From the NCBI RefSeq assembly GCF_013410775.1, contig NZ_JACCFH010000001.1, forward strand, positions 186,001 to 250,000: a stretch of DNA of 64,000 bases, read 5' to 3'. Made by a program: the position numbers and the translations under genes. Under the pieces are notes generated by a model. The model searched no databases, was not told the DNA's origin, and was given only the letters and a program-made list of their open reading frames with translations. Of the stretch, positions 47,932-61,701 are shown piece after piece. The DNA is from Sphaerotilus montanus. GTDB taxonomy: Bacteria; Pseudomonadota; Gammaproteobacteria; Burkholderiales; Burkholderiaceae_C. Each line of letters opens with the position of its first letter. Position 1 is the stretch's first letter.

Positions 47932-47935
47932 CAAC

Positions 47936-49537
47936 ATGAAACTAGAATGTGCGCCGATGATGCGCACGTTCTGCCCTGACTCCCGTTTCCGTTTCGCCCG
48001 CACCCCGGGCCACCACAGCGCGTGGAGGGGCTGGTGGCAACGCTGGTGGCAGATCCCGGTCCTGGTGCTGCCAGCCTGTCTGGTCAGCACCGCGCTGCAG
48101 GCACAGCCCCACCTGCCCGTGTCCTGCATGCTGGCGACACAGCCCCCCGCGCAGCTGACCGACCTGCTCGACGAGGCCTTGTGTGCCGACGCGCGCACCC
48201 GCCTGGCCTGGCAGCAGATCCAGCTCCAGTCCGCCCGTCTGGACGCCCAGCTGGCCAGCGCGCGCCCGGAGCTGAACCTGCGGCTGGAGACCGGCCGGGA
48301 ATCCGGCGCCCTGGCCGCCAGCAGCGGCCACAGCCGCACGGCCACACTGGAGCTGGGCTGGCTGCTGCTGGACGGCGGTCGCCAGGAAGCGGCCACCCGC
48401 GCCGCCCGGCTGGCGGTCACCGAGGCGATGGCGCAACGCGACACGGCCTTCCAGTCCGTGCTGCTGGACACCGCGCAGGCTTACCACGCCGTCCTCGATG
48501 CGCAGCAGGCCCTGCAGGCACGACAGGCCTTGCAGGACATGCTCGCCGCGCTGCAACCCGACCTGCAGCAGCGCCACCGCAGCGGCAAGGCCGAACACAC
48601 GGCGCTCCTGGAGCTGCGCCAGGCCCGCACGCGCAACCAGATCAGTCTGCGCGACAGCGCGCTCGCACTCACCGTGGCCCGCGCCCGCCTGTCGGCGCTG
48701 ACCAGCCGCGCCCCGGACACCCCCTGGCCAGCGCTGGCGGACACCGCCGCACCGGAGCCGGACACCACCGCGTTCACCGCGGTCGACGGGATCGAGCGCA
48801 GCCTGTCGCAGGCCCTCGACGACCACCCGGAACTGGCCGCAGCACGGGCACGCATCGGCGTCGCCCGCGCCGCGCTGGACCAGGCGGAGCGCGCCGGACG
48901 ACCGACCCTCGGCCTGAGCCATGCGCTCGGCCGTGGCCGACGCACCGGCGAGACCGCTGACGGCACCCCGGTGTCCGGCTCCGCTCGCCAGACCACGCTG
49001 ACTCTGACCTGGCCGCTGTTCGATGGCGGTGTCCGCCAGGCACAGCGCCAGGCGGCCAGCGTGGAGCACGCCACGGCCCGGACCGCACTCGAAGACCAGC
49101 GCCAGCGGCTCGCGGTCAGCGTGTGGGAGGCCTACCAGGAATGGCGCACGGCGGCGGCCGTGCAGACCGAGTACCAGGATCTGGTCCGACTTGCCCGCGG
49201 TCTGCTGTTCGCCGAAACGGCACGCTACCAAGGCGGGGACGAGGACGCCAGTCTGGCGGACCTGCTGACCGCCCGGCAGGACTGGACAGACGCGCAGATC
49301 GAGCAGCAGCAGGCCAGCTCGCGCCAGCGGCTGTCCCGCTGGCGCCTCGCCGCCAGCCTGGGGCGGCTGGAACGGGGCGCACTGCGCCCGACAGACGCGC
49401 CAGGGCGTCTTGCAGCAGCGCCAGTCCCCGCGGCCGTGCCGGCCGCACGCCCGACACTCCCGCCGACCCGCCCGGTCAGCGGCGGCTGCCAGCCCGGCAC
49501 GCTCGGACAAGGCGACGCCTGGTGCGTGCCACGCTGA
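47936..49537 (+). CDS. TolC-like outer-membrane efflux protein
   Basis: This is a 533-residue member of the outer membrane efflux family with a long N-terminus (signal near residues 38-57, VLVLPACLVSTALQAQ). Two repeated halves of long helices and short strands are visible: ARPELNLRLETGRES to LELGWLLLDGGRQEA, and GRPTLGLSHALGRGR to LTLTWPLFDGGVRQA. These halves are typical of TolC proteins that form trimeric export channels. The C-terminal 55 residues after the second helix bundle are Ala/Pro-rich with two Cys. It starts 4 bases after cheB with a poor ribosome site, so it may be coupled to the che operon, yet it also abuts the poly-amino-acid locus. ATG 47957 is an alternative start. No inner-membrane pump partner is present. 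Confidence 0.85.
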   Translation: MKLECAPMMRTFCPDSRFRFARTPGHHSAWRGWWQRWWQIPVLVLPACLVSTALQAQPHLPVSCMLATQPPAQLTDLLDEALCADARTRLAWQQIQLQSARLDAQLASARPELNLRLETGRESGALAASSGHSRTATLELGWLLLDGGRQEAATRAARLAVTEAMAQRDTAFQSVLLDTAQAYHAVLDAQQALQARQALQDMLAALQPDLQQRHRSGKAEHTALLELRQARTRNQISLRDSALALTVARARLSALTSRAPDTPWPALADTAAPEPDTTAFTAVDGIERSLSQALDDHPELAAARARIGVARAALDQAERAGRPTLGLSHALGRGRRTGETADGTPVSGSARQTTLTLTWPLFDGGVRQAQRQAASVEHATARTALEDQRQRLAVSVWEAYQEWRTAAAVQTEYQDLVRLARGLLFAETARYQGGDEDASLADLLTARQDWTDAQIEQQQASSRQRLSRWRLAASLGRLERGALRPTDAPGRLAAAPVPAAVPAARPTLPPTRPVSGGCQPGTLGQGDAWCVPR

Positions 49538-49585
49538 GCGTGGCCTCGGCACCGTTCTGGCGCCGAACAACCCCACTCCTCCATT

Positions 49586-49601
49586 TTACATAAGGTTACA
49601 T
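49586..49601 (+). promoter_or_regulatory. AT-rich leader with TTACAT direct repeats before the aminotransferase
   Basis: TTACAT occurs at 49586-49591 and 49596-49601, exactly 10 bases apart, in the only AT-rich patch of the 114-base gap. A weak -10-like GATACT follows at 49616-49621. This is a plausible promoter/operator for the two-gene poly-amino-acid operon. Confidence 0.35.
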
Positions 49602-49651
49602 TTAGGCGAATTTCTGATACTGCCAGTCCACCACCTCAGCAAGGAATGGAC

Positions 49652-50953
49652 ATGACCGGCCCCACCGTCAACGCCAGCACCAACACCAACGACCGCTCGG
49701 TTTTCCTGCGCCGCGAATCGGCGGCGCGCGGGTATTGCCGCCGCTTCGACACCGTCTTCACCTCGGCCCGCGGCAGCCTGATGCGCGACGAGGCGGGGCG
49801 CGAGTACATCGACTTCCTGGCCGGCTGCGCCGCACTGAACTACGGCCACAACGACCCGGCCATGCGCGAAGCCCTGCTGGCGCACATCGGCGCGGACGGC
49901 CTGGCGATGGGGCTGGACCTGCACTCCACCGCCAAGCGGGCCTTCCTCGACACCTTCGAGTCGGTGATCCTGAAGCCGCGCGGCCTGCCGCACCGGGTCC
50001 AGTTCACCGGGCCGACCGGCACCAACGCGGTCGAGGCCGCGATGAAGCTGGCCCGCAAGGTCACCGGGCGCCACAACATCATCGCCTTCACCAACGGCTA
50101 CCACGGCGTGACGCTCGGCGCGCTGGCGGCCACGGGCAGCGCGTACAACCGCATGGGCCTGCCGCTGTCGGGCGTGACGCGGGTGCCCTTCGACGGCTAC
50201 ATGGGGTCGGACATGGACAGCGCGGCATTGCTGGCGCGGCTGCTGGACGACCCGTCGAGCGGCGTGGACGCGCCCGCGGCCATCCTGCTGGAGACGGTGC
50301 AAGGCGAAGGGGGCCTCAACGCCGCCTCCCCAGGTTGGGTGCAGCGCATCGCCGCCCTCGCCCGCCAGCACGGCGCGCTGCTGATCGTGGACGACGTGCA
50401 GGCCGGCTGTGGCCGCACCGGCAGCTTCTTCAGCTTCGAGCCGATGGGCATCGTGCCGGACCTGGTGGCGATGTCCAAGTCGCTGTCGGGCTTTGGCCTG
50501 CCGATGGCGCTGGTGCTGATCCACCCGGACCACGACCAGTGGCGCCCGGCCGAACACAACGGCACCTTCCGCGGCAACACCCACGCCTTCGTCACCGCCA
50601 CCGCCGCGCTGCAGACCTACTGGCGCGAACCCGGCTTCGAAGCAGAGATCGCCCGCCGGGCCGCGCTGACCCACGCCCACCTGGAGCGCATCGGCCGCGA
50701 GGTGCCGGGCTCGGTCCTCAAGGGCCGCGGGATGATGCAGGGCCTTGACGTCCACAGCGGCGACCTGGCCGGACAGGTCTGCAGCCTGGCCTTCGCACGC
50801 GGGCTGGTGATCGAGACCTCGGGCGCCCACGACCAGGTGCTCAAGGTGCTGGCACCACTGAACACGCCGCTGCCACTGCTGGAGCAGGGCCTGTCGATCC
50901 TGCACGGCGCCGTCACCGACACGCTGGCGACTTCGCTGCGCCACGCCGCCTGA
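49652..50953 (+). CDS. L-2,4-diaminobutyrate aminotransferase (EctB-type)
   Basis: This 433-residue PLP enzyme of the class-III aminotransferases would convert aspartate semialdehyde and glutamate to L-2,4-diaminobutyrate (DAB). It matches EctB throughout: FTGPTGTNAVEAAMKLARK, FTNGYHGVTLGALAATGS, ETVQGEGGLNAAS, VDDVQAGCGRTGSFFSFE, the PLP lysine in MSKSLSGFGLP, and EHNGTFRGNTHAFVTA. No ectA or ectC is present, so it does not serve ectoine synthesis here. The neighbour 4 bases downstream is a poly-lysine-synthetase-like NRPS, making this the probable monomer supply. AAGGA at 49641-49645 is well placed for ATG 49652 and too close for the in-frame ATG at 49646. Confidence 0.92.
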   Translation: MTGPTVNASTNTNDRSVFLRRESAARGYCRRFDTVFTSARGSLMRDEAGREYIDFLAGCAALNYGHNDPAMREALLAHIGADGLAMGLDLHSTAKRAFLDTFESVILKPRGLPHRVQFTGPTGTNAVEAAMKLARKVTGRHNIIAFTNGYHGVTLGALAATGSAYNRMGLPLSGVTRVPFDGYMGSDMDSAALLARLLDDPSSGVDAPAAILLETVQGEGGLNAASPGWVQRIAALARQHGALLIVDDVQAGCGRTGSFFSFEPMGIVPDLVAMSKSLSGFGLPMALVLIHPDHDQWRPAEHNGTFRGNTHAFVTATAALQTYWREPGFEAEIARRAALTHAHLERIGREVPGSVLKGRGMMQGLDVHSGDLAGQVCSLAFARGLVIETSGAHDQVLKVLAPLNTPLPLLEQGLSILHGAVTDTLATSLRHAA

Positions 50954-50957
50954 GCCG

Positions 50958-53900
50958 ATGGACCTCGCCCACCCGTCGCCCACCCTCCTGCAGCAGCCCG
51001 CCGCCGACCACCACCTGCGCTGGCAACCCGGCGAGCGGCTGCACCACCTCTTCGAAGCCCGCTGTGACGCGCTCGCCCGCGAGGGCCGCGCCGACCGCGT
51101 CGCCCTGTGCAGCGAAGAGGCCACGCTGACCTACGCCGACCTCGACCGCCGCGCCAACCGGCTGGCGCGGCACCTGCTGGCCACCGGTGAGGTGCGGCCC
51201 GGCGACCGGGTGGCGCTGCTGTTCGACAAGTCGGTCCACAGCCACATCGCGATGCTGGCGGTGCTCAAGCTGCACGCGGCGTATGTCCCGCTCGACCCGG
51301 GGTTCCCCGACGACCGCTGCGCCTTCATCTGCGAGGACGCCGGCGTACGCCGGGTGCTGAGCGTGTCGCGCTACGCCGAGCGGCTGGCGGCATTGCCGGT
51401 GCCGGGGCTGTGCGTGGACCAGCTCGCCTGTGACACCTCGGGCGAGCGGCTGAGCGCGCAGGAGCTGGCCGACACCCTGCCGGACGGCGCCGGATGCGAC
51501 AACCCGCTGTGCTACGTCATCTACACCTCCGGCTCGACCGGGCGGCCCAAGGGCGTGCCGATCGAGCAGGCGCAGATCTGCAACTTCGTGCGCGTCGCCA
51601 CCGAAACCTACGGCTACCGGCCGGACGATCAGGTGTACCAGGGCCTGACGATGGCCTTCGACTTCGCGGTCGAGGAGACCTGGGTGCCGCTGTGCGTCGG
51701 CGCGACGCTGCACCCGAACCAGAGCAGCACCAGCCTGCTCGGCGAAGACCTGGCGCGTTTCCTCGTCGCGCGGCGCATCACGGCGCTGTGCTGCGTGCCG
51801 ACGCTGCTGGCGACGATCGAGGCGGACCTGCCCGACCTGCGGCTGCTGATCGTCTCGGGGGAAGCCTGCCCGCGCGACCTCGTGCAGCGCTGGGCCACGC
51901 CGACGCGGCGCATGCTCAACGCCTATGGGCCGACCGAGACGACGGTCACCGCGACGCTGGAGGTGCTCGATCCCGCGGCGCCGGTGGTGACGATCGGCCG
52001 GCCGCTGCCGACGTACACGGTGCTGATCCTGGCGCCGGACGAGCGGCGGGTGCTGCCGCTGGGCGAGGTCGGCGAGATCGTGATCGCGGGCGTCGGCGTG
52101 GCGCAGGGTTACCTCAACCGGCCGGACCAGACGGCGCGGGCCTTCATCGACGACTTCATCGGCGTGCAACCGAACCCGTCCGGCCGCCTCTACCGCACCG
52201 GCGACCTCGGCCGGCTGCGCGACGACGGCCGCGTCGAGTACCTCGGCCGCATCGACACGCAGGTCAAGATCCGCGGCTACCGCATCGAGCTGTCCGAGAT
52301 CGAGTCGGTCTTGATGCAGCAGGACGGCGTACGCCAGGCGGTCGTGCAGCCCCACGCCTTCGCGCCGGGGGCGGTCGAGCTGGTCGCTTACTACACGCTG
52401 CGGCCGGGCCATGCCGGGGTCGATCCGCAAGCGCTGCGCCGACGCCTGCGCGAGCAGTTGCCGGCGTTCATGGTGCCGAGCTGCTACGAATGTCTGGCCG
52501 AGATGCCGATGCTGGCCAGCGACAAGGCCGACCGCAAGTCGCTGCCCCCACCGACCGGCCGCCTGCCCGCCGAGTCCGCGGCCGAGGACGACCCGCCCGA
52601 CGGCCCGACCGAACAGGCCATCGCCGCGACGCTGGCCGCCGTGCTGCAGCTCGACCAGGTGCCCGCGGGCGCGCACTTCTTCGACGACCTCGGCGCCAAC
52701 TCGCTGCTGATGGCGGGGCTGGGCGCGCGGCTGCGGCGCACGCTGGACCGGCCGGCGCTGTCGATGGCCGACCTCTACCAGCACCCGTCGGTGCGGCTGC
52801 TGGCCCGGCACCTGGACGCCACGGCGGCCCGGGCCGATGCGGCACCGTCCCCGACCACCTCCGCCACCGCGGCGCCCCACCACGCCCACCGCCTCGCCTA
52901 CCTCGGCTGCGGCGTGGCACAGGTGCTGATGGTGCTGGCCTACGCGGCGGCCCAGTTCTGGCCGATGCTGGCGGGGCTGGACTGGCTGCTGGCAGAGACC
53001 GACCCGCTGCGCGCCTTCGGGCGGGCGATCGTGCTGGGCGCCGGGCTCTGGGTCTGGGCGGTGGCGCTGCCGGTCGTGCTGAAGTGGATCTTGATCGGCC
53101 GCTGGACGGTGCGCGAATTCCCGGCCTGGGGCACCACGTACCTGCGCTTCTGGGCGGTGCGCCAACTGCTGCGCTTCAACCCGGTCGTGCTGTTCGCGGG
53201 CTCGCCGCTGTACAGCGCCTACCTGCGCCTGCTGGGGGCGCGCATCGGCCGCCGCGTGCTGGTGGCAACGCCGCTGATGCCGGTCTGCACCGACCTGATC
53301 GACATCGGCGACGACAGCGTCATCGGCCGCCATGTCCTGCTCAACGGCTACCGCGTCGAGGCGGGCCGGGTGCGCACGGGCGCGGTCACGATCGGCCGGG
53401 GCTGCTTCATCGGCGAATCCACCGTGGTCGACATCGACACCGCGATGGGCGACGGCAGCCAACTCGGCCACAGCTCGGCGCTGCTGCCCGGCCAGCGCGT
53501 CGCCGCCGGTCAGCGCGCCCACGGCTCCCCCGCCCAGCCGACCGACACCGACTACCGGCGCGTGCCCGACGGCGCGCCGCCCGGGCGGTGGCGGCTCGCG
53601 CTGTTCTCGCTGGCGCAGCTCGGGTGGCTGGGGCTGGTGTCGCTGCCGTTGCCGCTGTGGGCGCTCTACCTGGTCAGCAGCGAACAGGGCCAGCGGCTGG
53701 AGGAACGTTTCAGCCTGCACCTGCTCGGCCACGCGCACCCGAGCCACTGGGACGCGCTGGGGCTGGTGGCCCTCGTCGGGGCGGGCGGGCTGCTGGCGGG
53801 CGCGGCGGTTTGGGCGCTGGTGATGGTGACGCTGCCGCGCTGGCTGTCAGGGCTGCTGACGCCGGGCCGGGTCTATCCGCTCTACGGGCCGCACTACCTG

Positions 53901-55052
53901 CTGCTGCAGTGGATCACCGCCTGGAGCAACTCGAAGTTCCACAACGCGTTGGCGGGTGACAGCCAGTACGCCACCAGCTGGCTGCAGGCGATCGGCTACC
54001 GCATGCCCGCGCTGGAGCAGACCGGCTCGAACTTCGGCATGAGCCAGACCCACGACGTGCCGACGCTGTGTACCTTCGGCAGCGGCACGATGGTCTCGGA
54101 CGGCCTGCTCGTCAGCAACACCGACCTGTCGGCCGGGCAGTTCCGGGTCGGGCATGCCGAGATCGGCGCGCGCAACTTCATCGGCAACGGCGTGCTGTTC
54201 CCGGCGGGCGCGCGCACGGGCGACAACTGCCTGCTGGCCACGCGGACGATGGTGCCGATCGACGGACCGCTGCGCGAGAACGTCGGGCTGCTGGGCTCGC
54301 CGTGTTTCGAGATCCCGCGCTCGGTGCTGCGCGACCAGCCGGATGCGCGGCTGCTCGACCCGGTCTGGCGCGCCGACGCACTGCGGCGCAAGCGGCATTC
54401 GAACGGGCTGACGATGGCGCTGTTCCTGACCGCTCGGGCCGGCGGTGCGGCGCTGGCGGCGGTTGTGTTTTATGGCGCCTATGTCGGGCTGCCGCTGCCG
54501 GGGGCGCTGTCGCTGGCGGTCGGCTCGGTCGCGGCGCTGGCGGTGCAGGTGCTCTGGTTCATCGGGGTGGACCGGGCCAGCCTGCTCGGGCGGGCGCTGG
54601 AGCCACGCACCGACGCGGTCCTGGACCCCGCGTTCTGGCGCCACGAACGCTTCTGGAAACTCGGGCTGGCCGGCGATAGCGTGCTGATGGCGCTGCTGCG
54701 CGGCACGCCGTTCATGGGGCTGGTGTGGCGAGCGCTGGGGGTGCGGGTCGGGCGGCAGTTGCTGGACGACGGCGGCTCGATCACCGAGAAGACCCTCACC
54801 ACGCTGGGCGACCACGCCACGCTGGGCGAGACGGCGCTGATCCAGGGCCATTCGCTGGAGGACGGGCTGTTCAAGTCCGACCACATCCGGCTGGGCGACG
54901 ACGTGACGCTCGGCACGCGGGCCTTTGTCCACTACGGCGTGGTGGCGGGGGACCGGGTGGTGTTCGACACCGACACCTTCCTGATGAAAGGCGAGCAGCC
55001 CGCGCCAGACTCGCGCTGGCACGGCAACCCGGCGCGCCCGGTCACCGGCTGA
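50958..55052 (+). CDS. Single-module membrane NRPS of the poly-lysine synthetase (Pls) type, predicted cationic poly-amino-acid synthetase
   Basis: This 1364-residue protein has an adenylation domain (about 25-535): A3 YTSGSTGRPKGV at 190-201, A4 with D235, and A10 Lys523 in SDKADRKSLP. A carrier domain follows with phosphopantetheine Ser582 in DDLGANSLL. Six membrane spans are at about 646-672, 686-714, 878-905, 934-960, 1151-1178 and 1183-1204. Three soluble domains with hexapeptide-like (left-handed helix) repeats lie between and after the span pairs (740-860, 980-1135, 1225-1360). There is no condensation or thioesterase domain. This is the layout of epsilon-poly-lysine synthetase, where the C-terminal domains join monomers repeatedly. 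By-eye pocket residues are D-F-E-C-I-S-A-V-T-K; the Glu fits a cationic substrate. With the aminotransferase upstream, DAB is the likely monomer. Confidence 0.88.
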   Translation: MDLAHPSPTLLQQPAADHHLRWQPGERLHHLFEARCDALAREGRADRVALCSEEATLTYADLDRRANRLARHLLATGEVRPGDRVALLFDKSVHSHIAMLAVLKLHAAYVPLDPGFPDDRCAFICEDAGVRRVLSVSRYAERLAALPVPGLCVDQLACDTSGERLSAQELADTLPDGAGCDNPLCYVIYTSGSTGRPKGVPIEQAQICNFVRVATETYGYRPDDQVYQGLTMAFDFAVEETWVPLCVGATLHPNQSSTSLLGEDLARFLVARRITALCCVPTLLATIEADLPDLRLLIVSGEACPRDLVQRWATPTRRMLNAYGPTETTVTATLEVLDPAAPVVTIGRPLPTYTVLILAPDERRVLPLGEVGEIVIAGVGVAQGYLNRPDQTARAFIDDFIGVQPNPSGRLYRTGDLGRLRDDGRVEYLGRIDTQVKIRGYRIELSEIESVLMQQDGVRQAVVQPHAFAPGAVELVAYYTLRPGHAGVDPQALRRRLREQLPAFMVPSCYECLAEMPMLASDKADRKSLPPPTGRLPAESAAEDDPPDGPTEQAIAATLAAVLQLDQVPAGAHFFDDLGANSLLMAGLGARLRRTLDRPALSMADLYQHPSVRLLARHLDATAARADAAPSPTTSATAAPHHAHRLAYLGCGVAQVLMVLAYAAAQFWPMLAGLDWLLAETDPLRAFGRAIVLGAGLWVWAVALPVVLKWILIGRWTVREFPAWGTTYLRFWAVRQLLRFNPVVLFAGSPLYSAYLRLLGARIGRRVLVATPLMPVCTDLIDIGDDSVIGRHVLLNGYRVEAGRVRTGAVTIGRGCFIGESTVVDIDTAMGDGSQLGHSSALLPGQRVAAGQRAHGSPAQPTDTDYRRVPDGAPPGRWRLALFSLAQLGWLGLVSLPLPLWALYLVSSEQGQRLEERFSLHLLGHAHPSHWDALGLVALVGAGGLLAGAAVWALVMVTLPRWLSGLLTPGRVYPLYGPHYLLLQWITAWSNSKFHNALAGDSQYATSWLQAIGYRMPALEQTGSNFGMSQTHDVPTLCTFGSGTMVSDGLLVSNTDLSAGQFRVGHAEIGARNFIGNGVLFPAGARTGDNCLLATRTMVPIDGPLRENVGLLGSPCFEIPRSVLRDQPDARLLDPVWRADALRRKRHSNGLTMALFLTARAGGAALAAVVFYGAYVGLPLPGALSLAVGSVAALAVQVLWFIGVDRASLLGRALEPRTDAVLDPAFWRHERFWKLGLAGDSVLMALLRGTPFMGLVWRALGVRVGRQLLDDGGSITEKTLTTLGDHATLGETALIQGHSLEDGLFKSDHIRLGDDVTLGTRAFVHYGVVAGDRVVFDTDTFLMKGEQPAPDSRWHGNPARPVTG

Positions 55053-55992: not shown

Positions 55993-56122
55993 GGGGGTCT
56001 CCTGATTTTTTGGGGCGATGGGCGGGTGGGGGCAGTGTGCCGTTTTCGGGGGCGGGGGCGTGTCGCTCAGGTGCCGAGCCGGTAGACAATGGACTTTTCG
56101 ACCTCACACAAGGACGCTCCGA

Positions 56123-56557
56123 ATGGGCACGCCATACGAACGGGACGTGGTGGCATGGGCGATGGAACAGGCCGCGCTGTTGCGGGCGGGCAAGCTCTCG
56201 GCCATCGACATTGAACACATCGCCGACGAAATCGAGGACGTTGCCAAGAGTGAGAAGCGCGAACTGGCCCGTCGGTTGTCGGCGTTGCTGGCGCACCTGC
56301 TGAGGTGGCAGCACATGCCTGGGCGCCGTTGCAGCAGTTGGACGCGTTCGATCAAGGTCCAGCGCAAGTCCATCGCCTCCGTGCTGCAGGCGGCGCCAAG
56401 CCTCACGGCCTCGCTGACTGACCCGCGCTGGGTGGAAGGCACGTGGCATGACGCTGTGGCGAAGGCGATTGACGAGACGGGGCTTGACACGTTCCCCGAG
56501 GATTGCCCGTGGTCGATCGATCAGGTGCTGTCGGCGGCGTTTTTCCCTGAGGCTTGA
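56123..56557 (+). CDS. DUF29 family protein
   Basis: This 144-residue soluble protein is of the DUF29 family, recognised by YERDVVAWAMEQAALLRAGKL, the IDIEHIADEIEDVAKSEKRELARRL core, LLAHLLRWQHMPGRR and the WSIDQVLSAAFFPE ending. The family is common in cyanobacteria and proteobacteria, and its function is unknown. AAGGA precedes the ATG at 56123. An in-frame upstream ATG at 56018 lies in Gly-rich non-coding sequence. The next gene starts 3 bases after the stop. Confidence 0.85.
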   Translation: MGTPYERDVVAWAMEQAALLRAGKLSAIDIEHIADEIEDVAKSEKRELARRLSALLAHLLRWQHMPGRRCSSWTRSIKVQRKSIASVLQAAPSLTASLTDPRWVEGTWHDAVAKAIDETGLDTFPEDCPWSIDQVLSAAFFPEA

Positions 56558-56560
56558 GAC

Positions 56561-57307
56561 TTGACCACCACGACCACCCCCGCACGCACCGCCATCGTCC
56601 TCGGCGGCTCCGGCTCCGTCGGCGGCGCCTTGCTCCACGCCTTGTTCCACGACGAGGGTTTCGGGACCGTCATCACCCTGTCGCGCCGATCGCTGCCCGA
56701 GGCGGTCGCGCTGGCCCGCGCCACGGGTCGCCGGCTGGTGGAGAAACTCGTGCCCGACATGGCGCCGGCGTCCCTCGCCGCAGCGACCCTGGAGGTGGCG
56801 CGAGCGGTCGGCGGCGAGCTGGAAGGGTTCAGCGTGCTGGGCGTCGGCGCCGACACGGCGAAGCTCACGCTGGAGGCGCATCGCGCGGTCGATGTGGCGC
56901 TGAACGAGGCGTTCGCCCGGGCGCTGCGGGAGTCGGGCCAGGTCCGGCACCTCGCGTTCATGAGCGCCGCCGGGGCGGACCCGACAGCGAAGACCAGCGG
57001 CAGCGGCGCGGCCGGCATGGCGCGCTACAACCGCGTGAAAGGCGAGGCGGAAGAAGCCGTGCGCGCGAGCGGGCCGGCGATCGTGAGCGTGTTCCGGCCT
57101 GCGATGATCATCGGGTCGCGGCACACGCCGTGGCTGCTTGCAAAGGCGCTGCCCTTGTTTTCGTTCGTGACGCCGGGGAAGTATCGGTCGATACGGGTGG
57201 AGCAGATCGCGGGGGCGATGATCGCGGCGGCGAAGCGGCATCCGGCGACAAACGCGACGTATCACTACCCGGAAATGGCGGCGCTGATCGCGAGTGGGCG
57301 GCAGTAG
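56561..57307 (+). CDS. NAD(P)-binding Rossmann-fold protein (atypical SDR)
   Basis: This 248-residue protein has the loop VLGGSGSVGGALLHAL at about 13-28 followed by an SRRS motif, an AFMSAAGADP strand, YNRVKGEAEEAVR (a YxxxK-like pair) and FRPAMIIGS. The overall plan is that of NAD(P)H-binding epimerase-like proteins (HTATIP2 and oxidoreductase types), which keep cofactor binding but have unclear substrates. It begins with TTG 3 bases after the DUF29 stop; no better start lies upstream. It is the last GC-rich gene before the AT-rich island. Confidence 0.75.
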   Translation: MTTTTTPARTAIVLGGSGSVGGALLHALFHDEGFGTVITLSRRSLPEAVALARATGRRLVEKLVPDMAPASLAAATLEVARAVGGELEGFSVLGVGADTAKLTLEAHRAVDVALNEAFARALRESGQVRHLAFMSAAGADPTAKTSGSGAAGMARYNRVKGEAEEAVRASGPAIVSVFRPAMIIGSRHTPWLLAKALPLFSFVTPGKYRSIRVEQIAGAMIAAAKRHPATNATYHYPEMAALIASGRQ

Positions 57308-57524
57308 TTCTCGACGCGAGAAGCACACAAGAGAACGGACCTGTCGCAATCACAGATTCCCACGCTCATGGGTGTGTCTGTTCGCACGTGCCAGGGTTGG
57401 GAGCAAGGGTGCAAGCAGCCCAGCGGGGCGGCGAGGAGGTTGCTTGCAATCGCGAGAACCAATCCGAGCGCCGTGCTGATAGTCGTAGAGAGATGATAGG
57501 CTGGAATTTGGTGAATATTCACCT

Positions 57525-57554
57525 AAGCGACGTGGAGGAATTCACGTCGCTTTT
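57525..57554 (+). terminator. Hairpin with short T run, terminator-like
   Basis: AAGCGACGTG (57525-57534) pairs perfectly with CACGTCGCTT (57543-57552) around an 8-base loop, ending in TTTT. It could end transcription from the upstream GC-rich genes and insulate the island. The T run is short, so it is not certain. Confidence 0.55.
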
Positions 57555-57744
57555 CCGTTTATGAAAACGTATTGTACCTCCATGCTCAGTTAGCTGACGT
57601 TGTGGCTAGACTCAGTGAATGAAAAATTTTCGTTAATTTATTCTAGGAACCTACTAGGTAGCACACCTACCCGAAATATCAGTTACTTCAACGCGAAGGA
57701 AATCAACTGAAAAATTTTAAACAGCACAAGAATCACATGCAGCT

Positions 57745-57760
57745 CCTTGAAAAATCAAGG
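57745..57760. promoter_or_regulatory. Dyad CCTTGA-N4-TCAAGG in the leader of the island operon
   Basis: A perfect 6-bp inverted repeat with an AAAA centre lies 29 bases before the methyltransferase ATG and just ahead of its AAAAGG ribosome site. It could be an operator or an mRNA hairpin that limits translation. Confidence 0.4.
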
Positions 57761-57789
57761 GAATCAACTTATAAAAAGGTAAAACCAAA

Positions 57790-58656
57790 ATGACGATATT
57801 TGAACTCGTGAAGATTGCACTCGACACACTTTACAAAGAAGCAACCAAAACCCATGGCAATGACGCAGACAAGGCAATTACAGAGCAGATTAAGTATCTC
57901 TCAAAAAGTTATACTCAGCTAAGTAGCAATGATCGTGAACCAGTCAACTACAAAGATCCAGCCACCCGTTTTGCCTACGTCTACAAATACGTAGCTTCTC
58001 ACGGCGACTACGTTGTCCAAGTTTTGGAAGTACTTCGCCAGAAGTTGGAGGGCCGAATCTTTAAGACAGACAGCATTCGCGTTTCTTGTGTGGGTGGAGG
58101 TCCCGGGAGCGACATCATTGCACTTCTTAAATATCTCGATGAACGAAAAGCCACCGAGAAAGTAAAAAAAGTTACATGCTATCTCCTTGACCGTGAACAG
58201 GCTTGGGCAGACACATGGGTCGAACTTGATGACTCACTCCAGACAGACCTAGTCCTTCATGCCAATTTTCAGCCGCTAGATGTCACGAAACCTGAATCTT
58301 GGGCCCAGCAAAAGAAATTCTTGGAGGCAGACGTCTTCACGATGAGCTACTTCGTCTCCGAAGTTATGGCTCTTGACAAAGATGGAGTCGTCACAAAATT
58401 CTGGGAAAAACTCTTCAAAGAAGCGAAGCCAGGTGCGATCTTTATTTATGATGACAACGGACATGACACTTTCAACAGGTACTTCGACAAGCAATGGAAA
58501 GCGGCCAAACTAAATTGCCTTGTTGAAGCAACGAATGAAGATTTTTGGCCGAGGTATAATGAACAAAAGTCCGAACTCGGCGAATTTCTTAAGAAATTCG
58601 GTCAGCAGCCAAAGTTAAAGACTTCACTCACCTATCGCGTACTCCAAAAACCTTGA
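57790..58656 (+). CDS. Class I SAM-dependent methyltransferase, target unknown
   Basis: This 288-residue protein has SAM motif I VSCVGGGPGSDI at about 98-109, an acidic motif II D134 in CYLLDRE, and a later strand DVFTMSYFVSEVMALD that resembles motif IV, then KPGAIFIYDDNG. The first 90 residues are a helical lead domain. No DNA-methylase DPPY/NPPY motif is present, so a DNA adenine or cytosine-N4 role is not supported; RNA, protein or small molecule are possible targets. It is AT-rich, unlike its surroundings. Its stop overlaps the start of the AlkB-like gene (TTGA), so both proteins are made together. Confidence 0.75.
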   Translation: MTIFELVKIALDTLYKEATKTHGNDADKAITEQIKYLSKSYTQLSSNDREPVNYKDPATRFAYVYKYVASHGDYVVQVLEVLRQKLEGRIFKTDSIRVSCVGGGPGSDIIALLKYLDERKATEKVKKVTCYLLDREQAWADTWVELDDSLQTDLVLHANFQPLDVTKPESWAQQKKFLEADVFTMSYFVSEVMALDKDGVVTKFWEKLFKEAKPGAIFIYDDNGHDTFNRYFDKQWKAAKLNCLVEATNEDFWPRYNEQKSELGEFLKKFGQQPKLKTSLTYRVLQKP

Positions 58657-59792
58657 GCCTCGACCTCTTTCAGCCGGAACCCAGCTTAGATCGTCTTCCG
58701 CTGGAAGGGGCCGATGTTCAACTCATACCAAATTTTCTTTCTAGCGGCGAGGTTGAGTACATACTACAAGAACTGATCGAAAAAACTCATTGGCGGGCTG
58801 AAGAGTTGGTTGTTTGGGGTAAACGGTATCCTCAACCGCGGTTGGTTGCCTGGTATGGAGACTCTGGCCGAACGTACACCTACTCAGGCATTGCCATGCA
58901 GCCATTGCCGTGGACACATCGCCTTCTCGAACTGCGTTCGAGGGTCGAAGAGGCTTGCGCGGAAAGTTTCAATAGTGTTTTGTTGAACTACTACCGCAAT
59001 GAGCGGGACAGCATTGGTATGCATAGTGATGACGAACCAGAACTGGGCCCCCGACCAACCATCGCATCGTTGAGCCTTGGCGAGCAGAGAGTATTCACGT
59101 TTAAGCCGCGTCGCAACCAGACACTACGTCCTGTTCACTTGCCCTTACCGTCCGGAAGCTTACTGCTGATGAAAGGAGAAACTCAGCAGAACTGGAAACA
59201 TGGAATCGCAAAGACGACGAGACCCATGGGGCCAAGGATCAATCTCACCTTCCGGCAAATTGGCCTCACTCTAGGACAGAGTAGTAAAGATTTGCGGCCA
59301 CTTATATCAAACGTTAGCCCTCAAGCACGCTCGATGCATAACGAATCCTCCTCTGACACACTACTAAAAATATGGCGGCAAAAAGAAATACCGATTATTC
59401 TTCGTCGAGCAAATCCTCAGCCATTACTTGCGAAAATACCATTCGCACAAAACAATTTCGAATGGCTCCGCGATGACCAGAGAAATAAGCCAGAATGGAA
59501 TTCGCAATATAAGGCCTGGCAAATTCCACAAGCCTGGTTCGAGCGAACAATTCGACTTTGCTTGCGGCGCTATTCCAAGTGCTACGTGATTCAATTACAC
59601 AGGGAACAGCAGGTATGCGCCCCAGCTTGCTGGAATGCCCAAGGCGCGGACTGCGAATGCTCCTGCATGGGTGAGAATCACGGCACTGGGCATCCCGGTG
59701 GTCGATGGTACGAAATTGACGAAACACTGGCTGTGTCTTGGGGTGTCCAAAAGTACGCCTGCCGCCTCTTTCGTTCCATAAGTTCCGCCTGA
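58653..59792 (+). CDS. AlkB-like Fe(II)/2-oxoglutarate dioxygenase fused to a Cys-rich C-terminal domain
   Basis: The N-terminal 205 residues are an AlkB-type dioxygenase with iron ligands H124 and D126 (GMHSDDE) and H183 (WKHGI) and the 2-oxoglutarate/substrate pair R195 and R201 (RINLTFR). The NYYRNERDSIG lead-in is typical of ALKBH2/3-like nucleic-acid demethylases. Residues 235-379 form a second domain (EWNSQYKAWQIPQAWFERTI, then C322, C326, C334, C336, C338 and H343 in CAPACWNAQ-GADCECSCMGENHG). It looks like a zinc-binding module absent from E. coli AlkB (about 216 residues). It starts at TTG inside the methyltransferase stop. The pairing suggests methyl addition and removal, or tailored repair, on a nucleic acid. 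Confidence 0.82.
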   Translation: MSLDLFQPEPSLDRLPLEGADVQLIPNFLSSGEVEYILQELIEKTHWRAEELVVWGKRYPQPRLVAWYGDSGRTYTYSGIAMQPLPWTHRLLELRSRVEEACAESFNSVLLNYYRNERDSIGMHSDDEPELGPRPTIASLSLGEQRVFTFKPRRNQTLRPVHLPLPSGSLLLMKGETQQNWKHGIAKTTRPMGPRINLTFRQIGLTLGQSSKDLRPLISNVSPQARSMHNESSSDTLLKIWRQKEIPIILRRANPQPLLAKIPFAQNNFEWLRDDQRNKPEWNSQYKAWQIPQAWFERTIRLCLRRYSKCYVIQLHREQQVCAPACWNAQGADCECSCMGENHGTGHPGGRWYEIDETLAVSWGVQKYACRLFRSISSA

Positions 59793-59910: not shown

Positions 59911-61701
59911 TCAGAACGCGTCCAGCGCCATCGCACACACCGAATCCGCCCCCGCAACGATCGCATCCCGCAGCCCCGGCACCTTCACCAGAATGTGCTC
60001 CGCATAGAACTGCGCCGTGGTGACCTTGGCCTGCATGAAGGCGACGTCCTCGCCCTCGTTGATGCAGTCCTGCGCCGCCAGCAGCGCGCGGCCCATCTGC
60101 CAGCCGGCCATCAGGTTGCCGGTGAGCATCAGGTAAGGCACCGAGCCGGCATACGCGGCGTTCGGGTTGCTGCGGCCATTGGCGGCGATGAAGTCCACCG
60201 CGTCGAGGAAGGCCAGTCGCGCCGCCGTCAGGTTCTTCGCGAACGACTGGGCCGCCACGCTGTCCCGCGCCGCCAGCAGCACCTCGGTCTGCTCGATCTG
60301 CCCGGCCAGCGCCTTGGCGGTCTGCCCACCATCGCGCCCGGTCTTGCGCCCCACGAGGTCGTTGGCCTGGATGGCGGTCGTGCCTTCGTAGATGGTCAGG
60401 ATCTTGGCGTCGCGGTAATACTGCGCCGCGCCCGTTTCCTCGATGAAGCCCATGCCGCCGTGGACCTGCACGCCCAGGCTCGTCACCTCCAGGCTCATCT
60501 CGGTCGAGTAGCCCTTCACCAGCGGCACCATGAACTCGTAGAAGGTCTGGTTGACCTTGCGGGTGTCGGCGTCCGGGTGGTGGTGCGCGGCGTCATACGC
60601 GGCCCCCGCCACCAGCGCCAGCGAGCGGCAGCCCTCGGTGTAGGCGCGCATCGTCATCAGCATCCGGCGCACGTCGGCGTGGTGGATGATCGCCGCCGCA
60701 CCCGGCGTCGAGCCATCCACCGGCCGCGACTGCACGCGGTCACGCGCGTACTGCACCGCCTTCTGGTACGCCCGCTCGGCCACCGCGATGCCCTGCACGC
60801 CCACCGCGAAACGGGCGGCGTTCATCATGATGAACATGTATTCGAGGCCGCGGTTCTCCTGCCCCACCAGGTAGCCGACCGCGCCGCCGTGGTCGCCGAA
60901 CTGCAGCACCGCGGTCGGGCTGGCCTTGATGCCCATCTTGTGTTCGATCGAGACGCAGTGCGCGTCGTTGCGCTCACCCAGGCTGCCGTCCGCGTTCACC
61001 ATGAACTTCGGCACGATGAACAGGCTGATGCCCTTCACGCCCTCCGGCGCGCCGACCACGCGGGCCAGCACGAGGTGGACGATGTTCTCGGCCATGTCGT
61101 GTTCGCCATACGTGATGAAGATCTTGGTGCCAAAGATCTTGTAGGTGCCGTCCGGCTGCGGCTCGGCCTTGGTGCGCACCGCCGCCAGGTCGGAGCCGGC
61201 CTGCGGCTCGGTCAGGTTCATCGTGCCGGTCCAGCGGCCTTCGACCATCGGCGTCAGGTAGGTCGCCTTCTGCTCGTCAGTGCCGGCGGTCAGCAGCGCC
61301 TCGATCGCCCCGTCCGTCAGCAGCGGGCACAGCGCGAAGCTCAGGTTGGCGCTGTTGATCATCTCGATGCAGGCCGCGCCGATCGCCTTCGGCAGGCCTT
61401 GGCCGCCGAACTCCTCGGGGTGCTGCAGGCCCTGCCAGCCACCTTCGCCCAGTTGGCGGAAGGCGTCCTTGAAGCCGGGCGTGGTCGTGACGACGCCGTC
61501 CTTGAACCACGACGGGTTCTTGTCGCCTTCCCAGTTCAGCGGGGCGACGACGTTCTCGTTGAACTTCGCGCACTCGTCGAGCACGGCCTGGGCGGTGTCG
61601 AGGCCGTGGTCGGCGAAGGCGGGGATCTGGGTGAGCTGCTCCAGGCCGGCGAGTTCCTTGAGGCCGAACATGAAGTCCTTGACGGGGGCGCGGTAGGTCA
61701 T
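59911..61701 (-). CDS. Acyl-CoA dehydrogenase (large, DmdC/FadE-like group)
   Basis: This is a 596-residue FAD enzyme of the larger acyl-CoA dehydrogenase subgroup, which carries a C-terminal extension. Visible marks are [15 protein letters not shown] at the start, [15 protein letters not shown] (FAD/substrate contact), [10 protein letters not shown], the catalytic-Glu region [23 protein letters not shown] and [16 protein letters not shown]. It would oxidise an acyl-CoA and pass electrons to the EtfAB pair encoded just upstream. A terminator separates it from etfA, so it may also have its own promoter. The exact chain length or methylmercapto substrate cannot be read. Confidence 0.9.

Follow-up and report, generated by a model that had tools for sequence, protein, structure and literature searches.

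A candidate poly-diaminobutyrate locus with a linked TolC-family gene in Sphaerotilus montanus

Gene content and architecture of the locus

Sphaerotilus is a sheathed freshwater bacterium of the Burkholderiales. We analyzed a 64,000-nucleotide stretch of the Sphaerotilus montanus genome (the window; contig NZ_JACCFH010000001.1, from a genome of 5.07 Mb in three contigs) and describe here a locus within it that probably directs synthesis of a cationic poly-amino acid. Between cheB and a nitronate monooxygenase gene, approximately 7.1 kb hold three genes, which encode a TolC-family channel protein, an EctB-type L-2,4-diaminobutyrate (DAB) aminotransferase and a synthetase of the Pls/PosA family (Table 1). 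A sequence-only reading had described a two-gene locus, in which the aminotransferase and a 1364-residue protein with adenylation (A) and carrier (T) domains lie 4 bases apart. Both open reading frames (ORFs) and their spacing were confirmed on the + strand, although the aminotransferase ORF opens at 49646, the previously claimed 49652 being the second in-frame ATG. The third gene, directly upstream, had been overlooked. Downstream, the synthetase ORF runs 11 bases into the nitronate monooxygenase ORF, overlapping its end. Chance reading frames were set aside because curated family cut-offs are passed. Between 47600 and 55400, a promoter and terminator scan gave no promoter-like site and one minus-strand terminator-like site, which did not rise above shuffled sequence.

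The aminotransferase exceeds the cut-offs of both NCBIfam TIGR02407 (573.9 bits against 552.2) and PRK09264 (605.3 bits against 438). Its K278, which sits in the motif MSKSLSG, is presumably the pyridoxal phosphate (PLP) lysine. Is the large protein that follows an ordinary non-ribosomal peptide synthetase module? Its terminal domain rules this out, as it matches the NCBIfam Pls/PosA terminal domain TIGR02353 at 603.4 bits (cut-off 423.1). Together with the A and carrier domains, this bears out the Pls-type layout proposed earlier. Four Pfam families were reported for the whole protein: AMP-binding (264.1 bits), its C-terminal domain, PP-binding and a weak hexapeptide match. No condensation or thioesterase family is among them, as the sequence-only reading had also maintained.

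Merged hydrophobic stretches at residues 646-674, 686-715, 880-906, 932-963, 1153-1184 and 1176-1205 are consistent with six membrane spans. An AlphaFold2 model of residues 546-1364, built from 32 aligned sequences (mean pLDDT 88.0, pTM 0.88), contains three blocks of beta-helix along with long helices arranged in three pairs. Foldseek matches in the PDB were mostly hexapeptide acyltransferases at the top (best E 1.8e-5), each covering part of the model. The six spans and three hexapeptide-like domains claimed before are thus both reflected in the predicted structure. The model of the C-terminal triple domain also agrees with the modelled terminal domain of PosA as described in PMC10522769.

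Table 1. Features of the locus, in window coordinates
Feature	Position	Strand	Evidence
Whole block between cheB and nitronate monooxygenase gene	47932..55052 (limits approximate)		tblastn at empty sites
TolC-family outer-membrane efflux protein (OEP) gene	47936..49537	+	PF02321, 130.4 bits (cut-off 22)
EctB-type L-2,4-diaminobutyrate:2-oxoglutarate aminotransferase, 435 residues	49646..50953	+	TIGR02407
Codon of EctB K278, presumed PLP lysine	50477..50479	+	
Pls/PosA-family synthetase, A-PCP (peptidyl carrier)-(membrane pair/beta-helix)x3, 1364 residues	50958..55052	+	
Adenylation domain, residues 42-523, code DFECISAVTK	51081..52526	+	PF00501 + PF13193; code by alignment
Peptidyl carrier domain, residues 553-619	52614..52814	+	PF00550, 38.2 bits
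Presumed phosphopantetheine site S582	52701-52703	+	invariant in 32 alignment rows
Pls/PosA terminal polymerisation domain, residues 651-1359	52908..55034	+	TIGR02353; predicted model

Adenylation code, linked aminotransferases and distribution

Which amino acid does the synthetase activate? Its code, DFECISAVTK, has Phe at pocket position 2 and Glu at position 3. The pocket positions were set by core motifs, and we take GrsA numbering as the frame in which they are placed. As a check, PosA-type rows of the alignment read D-M-E-H-N-x-T-V-S, as PMC10522769 reports for PosA. The same source gives Phe at pocket position 2 of poly-diaminopropionate (PDAP) and poly-DAB (PDAB) synthetases, Met in PosA and Ala in Pls.

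We surveyed the code in 63 aligned family members, and an aminotransferase was counted as linked wherever a tblastn match above 100 bits fell within the fetched flanks (8 kb at most). Of the 36 rows with DFEC[IL]S, 30 have an EctB- or Dat-type enzyme there, and none of the 27 with other codes has a DAB-type aminotransferase. The rows share ancestry and were picked by similarity to the window protein, so the counts are not independent trials. The link between this code class and a DAB-type aminotransferase spans two phyla. Two types of enzyme occur, EctB-like (at least 50% identity to the window EctB) and Dat-like (about 35-38%), which strengthens the association of the code class with DAB. Actinobacterial DFECLS loci carry an aminotransferase in 26 cases out of 30. 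The DFEC[IL]S rows without one are L008, L011, L012, L015, L035 and L039. The L039 sequence begins only 166 bases ahead of the synthetase gene. L012 comes from a genome with an ectoine synthase, and that genome therefore probably has an ectoine-type EctB elsewhere. L188, added later, has both a DFEC[IL]S code and EctB. An aspartate-kinase-like gene was found in the flanks of 17 of the 36 DFEC[IL]S rows (17 of the 30 DFECLS rows), one of the 17 being confirmed by Pfam; in the window, a scan of ten genes between cheR and 59.8 kb recognised no linked aspartate kinase.

DFEALG[ST]VTK is read in L013, L016, L017, L037, L042 and L135-L140, all 11 without an aminotransferase in the fetched flanks, and most of these loci have GNAT-like and phosphopantetheinyl-transferase-like genes nearby. 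Within the same order as the window, L190:9508-13485 has the unusual code DFECNGTASK and no EctB match. In a quick tree, the locus EctB clusters with its Pls-linked counterparts from Citricoccus and Micrococcus (SH-aLRT 99) and is not grouped with a second EctB of its own genome, which was flagged as a long branch. DAB, probably the L form, is the best reading of the monomer. Family matches, the position-2 Phe and the aminotransferase linkage all support the earlier proposal of a cationic poly-amino acid, a poly- or oligo-diaminobutyrate.

How widespread is the protein? The closest named relatives are from a Sphaerotilus metagenome-assembled genome (84% identity) and Sphaerotilus natans ATCC 13338 (66%), which coincide with G691:C35 and G690:C7 of the same genus, and a synthetase of the window type is present in 5 of 13 genomes of the genus. 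In the bacterial family, a TIGR02353 protein was found in 22 of 299 genomes: the window's own, G170 (60% identity), G250 (54%) and 19 others at about 33-35%, among which six codes were read (DMEHNGTVSK five times, DMEHNGSVSK once). The phylum sample gave a family match in 27 of 398 genomes. In the order sample, 18 of 399 genomes match the synthetase at E 1e-100, some in the A-domain part only.

A tree of the 63 rows (quick search, PosA-type rows as outgroup, with some rows, the window's included, flagged for odd composition) unites the window with L006, L005 and L133 in one clade (support 100). Methylibium L039 joins this clade (98), followed by Halomonas L012 (99) and then by a clade made up of alphaproteobacteria and six further rows of the same phylum (90). 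Actinobacterial DFECLS rows fall outside, two Citricoccus rows branching deepest, and PosA-type rows fall outside the DFE clade. Phosphopantetheinyl-transferase-like genes lie near 10 of 12 alphaproteobacterial-clade loci and 6 of 12 PosA-type loci, and GNAT-like genes near 9 of the 12 alphaproteobacterial-clade loci; one member of each cluster was checked by Pfam (for the first, L039). The S. montanus genome has two phosphopantetheinyl transferase matches elsewhere, in open frames of 138 and 331 amino acids. The sequence-only reading placed the best-described Pls relatives in actinomycetes; the type was already known in a proteobacterium too, as PosA of Acinetobacter (PMC10522769). That paper reports PDAP-type pockets in many bacterial genera, with major clusters from Proteobacteria, and a proteobacterial DFE-type protein is therefore not new as such. 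Our data extend the probable poly-DAB type to the Burkholderiales. We also observed a split arrangement, in which a gene for a carrier and a Pls terminal domain lies beside a separate A-carrier gene with a code starting DIW.STADD (L043, L046-L048, L050, L051, L053, L056-L058 and similar loci).

The same genome seems to use DAB a second time. The sequence-only reading had found no competitor for DAB, which is correct for the window, and no match to ectoine synthase (EctC) was obtained in the genome, the Halomonas genome searched alongside giving one; an ectoine cluster is thereby ruled out. Against that claim stands the second EctB, on another contig (C2:71495-72724, 657.8 bits), which adjoins a row of very long A-domain genes (C2:71465-112328; L159, L160, L162, L163). 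Five of these A domains were read, and one (in 80153-88258) gives DIWESTADD in the nine positions read, which we take to be the DAB-type code of syringomycin-like synthetases. The row probably makes a further product that contains DAB. On the same contig, genes at about 116-120 kb look transporter-like by eye only.

The TolC-family gene and the empty site

The TolC-family protein (533 amino acids from 47936, start uncertain) has two OEP stretches and, by eye, an N-terminal hydrophobic stretch resembling a signal peptide. Does its gene belong to the chemotaxis row upstream or to the genes downstream? L203 (G248), L204 (G694) and L205 (S. natans) belong to the genus of the window. There, the nitronate monooxygenase gene comes after cheR and cheB, with gaps of 73, 73 and 61 bp, respectively, between the ends of the tblastn matches to cheB and to nitronate monooxygenase. 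This empty junction places the channel gene in the inserted stretch and not in the chemotaxis row. The synthetase of S. natans is on another contig than its empty site. G058 (L206) has a nitronate monooxygenase match and no cheB in the stretch taken, a different junction that is uninformative on the insertion.

A second apparent insertion is seen nearby. The acyl-CoA dehydrogenase gene (window 59911-61701) directly follows the nitronate monooxygenase gene in L204 and L205; the window has at 56018-59792 DUF29, NAD-binding, methyltransferase-like and 2-oxoglutarate-Fe(II) oxygenase genes, with the G+C content falling to about 50% at 58-60 kb.

In L005, L006 and L133, the gene immediately before EctB encodes a homologue of the channel (39%, 62% and 38% identity, respectively); Methylibium (L039/L134, the same contig) has one downstream of its synthetase (30%). 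The C-terminal motif C-x-x-G...WCVPR is present in four of these five proteins, the window's included, and absent in Methylibium. Among six distinct Burkholderiales loci with this code type, five have the channel, L188 being the exception; these five occurrences represent four flanking contexts, that of the window being shared in part with L006. The S. montanus genome has 24 OEP half-domain matches that pair into 12 TolC-type genes, and by a rough estimate a TolC-type neighbour within a few kb would be expected by chance at about 1% per independent site.

A profile built from the five channel proteins was searched against six-frame fragments of at least 100 amino acids from the window and 161 loci. 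Besides its five members and their duplicates, the only match at E 1e-3 in that set was a further TolC gene in L005 (E 9.4e-8); the PosA-type loci from the order of the window gave none. In Halomonas jincaotanensis, an alginate-export-type barrel gene (L012:5410-6750; PF13372, 132.3 bits) lies upstream of the DFECIS synthetase, separated from it by about 1.2 kb that include a small ORF. Pfam searches of ten flanking proteins from nine alphaproteobacterial-clade or PosA-type loci and L037 revealed neither an OEP nor any outer-membrane exporter that recurs; the L066 protein has an autotransporter beta-domain, and two others have no family.

The TolC-family gene thus appears to belong to the poly-DAB unit, and its addition may be new. 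In the literature searched, with subscription papers outside the scope, the matches listed include no outer-membrane channel linked to a Pls/PosA-type synthetase, and no such synthetase in Sphaerotilus. The main text of the PosA paper (PMC10522769) contains none of the terms secret-, export, outer membrane, periplasm, extracellular or transport.

Proposed pathway, alternatives and known systems

The sequence itself shows which genes and domains are present, the fold they are predicted to adopt, the class of the code, the linkage of the genes and their insertion. From these we infer that the three genes likely form a unit that makes, and probably releases, a cationic isopeptide homopolymer of DAB (gamma-poly-DAB, probably L) in Sphaerotilus. 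EctB would convert aspartate semialdehyde to L-DAB, and the synthetase would adenylate DAB and load it onto S582 of its carrier domain. The membrane-embedded domain with its three beta-helices would then couple DAB units stepwise through the side-chain amine and deliver the growing chain into the periplasm, from which the TolC-family protein would provide an outer-membrane exit. The steps up to polymerisation are modelled here on knowledge of the family; exit through the channel is suggested by gene linkage only.

Several observations count against this proposal. Among proteins of solved structure, a phmmer search with the whole synthetase ranks linear gramicidin synthetase chains first (544.6 bits), with the PosA (274.9 bits) and Pls (219.7 bits) A domains at lower ranks, in a comparison where construct lengths and the number of matched stretches differ. 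Since the gramicidin chains outscore PosA and Pls, membership of the family is proved by the terminal domain and not by the A domain alone. The window code has I, S and A at positions 5-7 where actinobacterial codes have L, S and V, and Phe at position 2 fails to separate DAB from diaminopropionate (DAP). As to the channel, L188, of the same genus and at the same site, has cheR, cheB, EctB and synthetase without it, which leads us to reject an obligatory channel. Its neighbours include no recognised membrane-fusion or pump gene, and the channel profile had no match in 12 alphaproteobacterial-clade and 12 PosA-type loci.

Might the TolC-family gene be an unrelated neighbour without a role in the polymer? 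Its absence from L188, the lack of a recognised pump or fusion partner and its start about 4 bp after cheB all speak for this, but the gene is missing from the empty cheB-nitronate monooxygenase junctions and accompanies the synthetase elsewhere too, in L005 and L133 at different sites and in L039 on its downstream side. We consider a bystander role rather unlikely.

Polymerisation of DAP or D-DAB in place of L-DAB seems improbable. In its favour, the position-2 Phe is common to PDAP and PDAB synthetases (PMC10522769), a poly-D-DAB synthetase is already known (PMC8117764), and the DFEALG relatives do without an aminotransferase. Against both stands the directly linked EctB, which clusters with other Pls-linked EctB. 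For DAP, the best match to the SbnB family in the genome scores 27.4 bits where the cut-off is 326.9, a search in which no control genome passed either; for D-DAB, the ten genes scanned include no racemase. An ornithine or lysine polymer, as with PosA or Pls, is highly improbable: family and architecture are common to all, and the distant type is commoner in the bacterial family, where six of six PosA-like proteins read have the PosA code, but such a polymer would require no EctB, and PosA-type poly-ornithine in particular is rejected on code and tree position.

How does the locus compare with known systems? The pairing of synthetase and aminotransferase is of a known type, that of actinomycete poly-DAB synthetases with dat; dat and ask are listed with poly-DAB synthetases in a figure legend of PMC8117764. 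Like those loci, the window has a DAB aminotransferase beside a single-chain A-T-C1/C2/C3 synthetase with Phe at position 2 (PMC10522769). Unlike them, it has a Burkholderiales host, an EctB-type enzyme where many of the actinomycete loci sampled have a Dat-type one, no recognised linked aspartate kinase and an added TolC-family channel. With PosA, the delta-poly-L-ornithine synthetase of Acinetobacter baumannii (PMC10522769), it shares a Gram-negative host, domain order and terminal domain family, but the code of PosA is DMEHNGTVSK and relatives with that code are about 30-35% identical to the window synthetase. Epsilon-poly-L-lysine synthetase, Pls of Streptomyces, has the founding architecture in common and differs in its Ala at pocket position 2 (PMC10522769). 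The poly-L-diaminopropionate synthetase of S. albulus PD-1 (PMC4668381) resembles the window protein in architecture and position-2 Phe (PMC10522769), but its monomer is made by cysteine-synthase and ornithine-cyclodeaminase homologues (PMC4668381).

More speculatively, the unit may be a self-contained Gram-negative machine for making and exporting the polymer, in which the polymerase threads poly-DAB across the inner membrane and the TolC-type channel exports it without an ABC or RND pump, polymerisation itself driving secretion. Other Gram-negatives would use other outer-membrane proteins, such as the L012 barrel. We hold this to be doubtful as a whole. At the level of the family, the survey provides a working pocket rule for guessing monomers: among the loci sampled, a DAB-type aminotransferase accompanies DFEC[IL]S but neither DFEALG nor DMEHNG. 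For Sphaerotilus, the three-gene block of about 7.1 kb, together with the empty site in sister genomes, offers a small testable system for how a cationic isopeptide polymer may exit Gram-negative cells.

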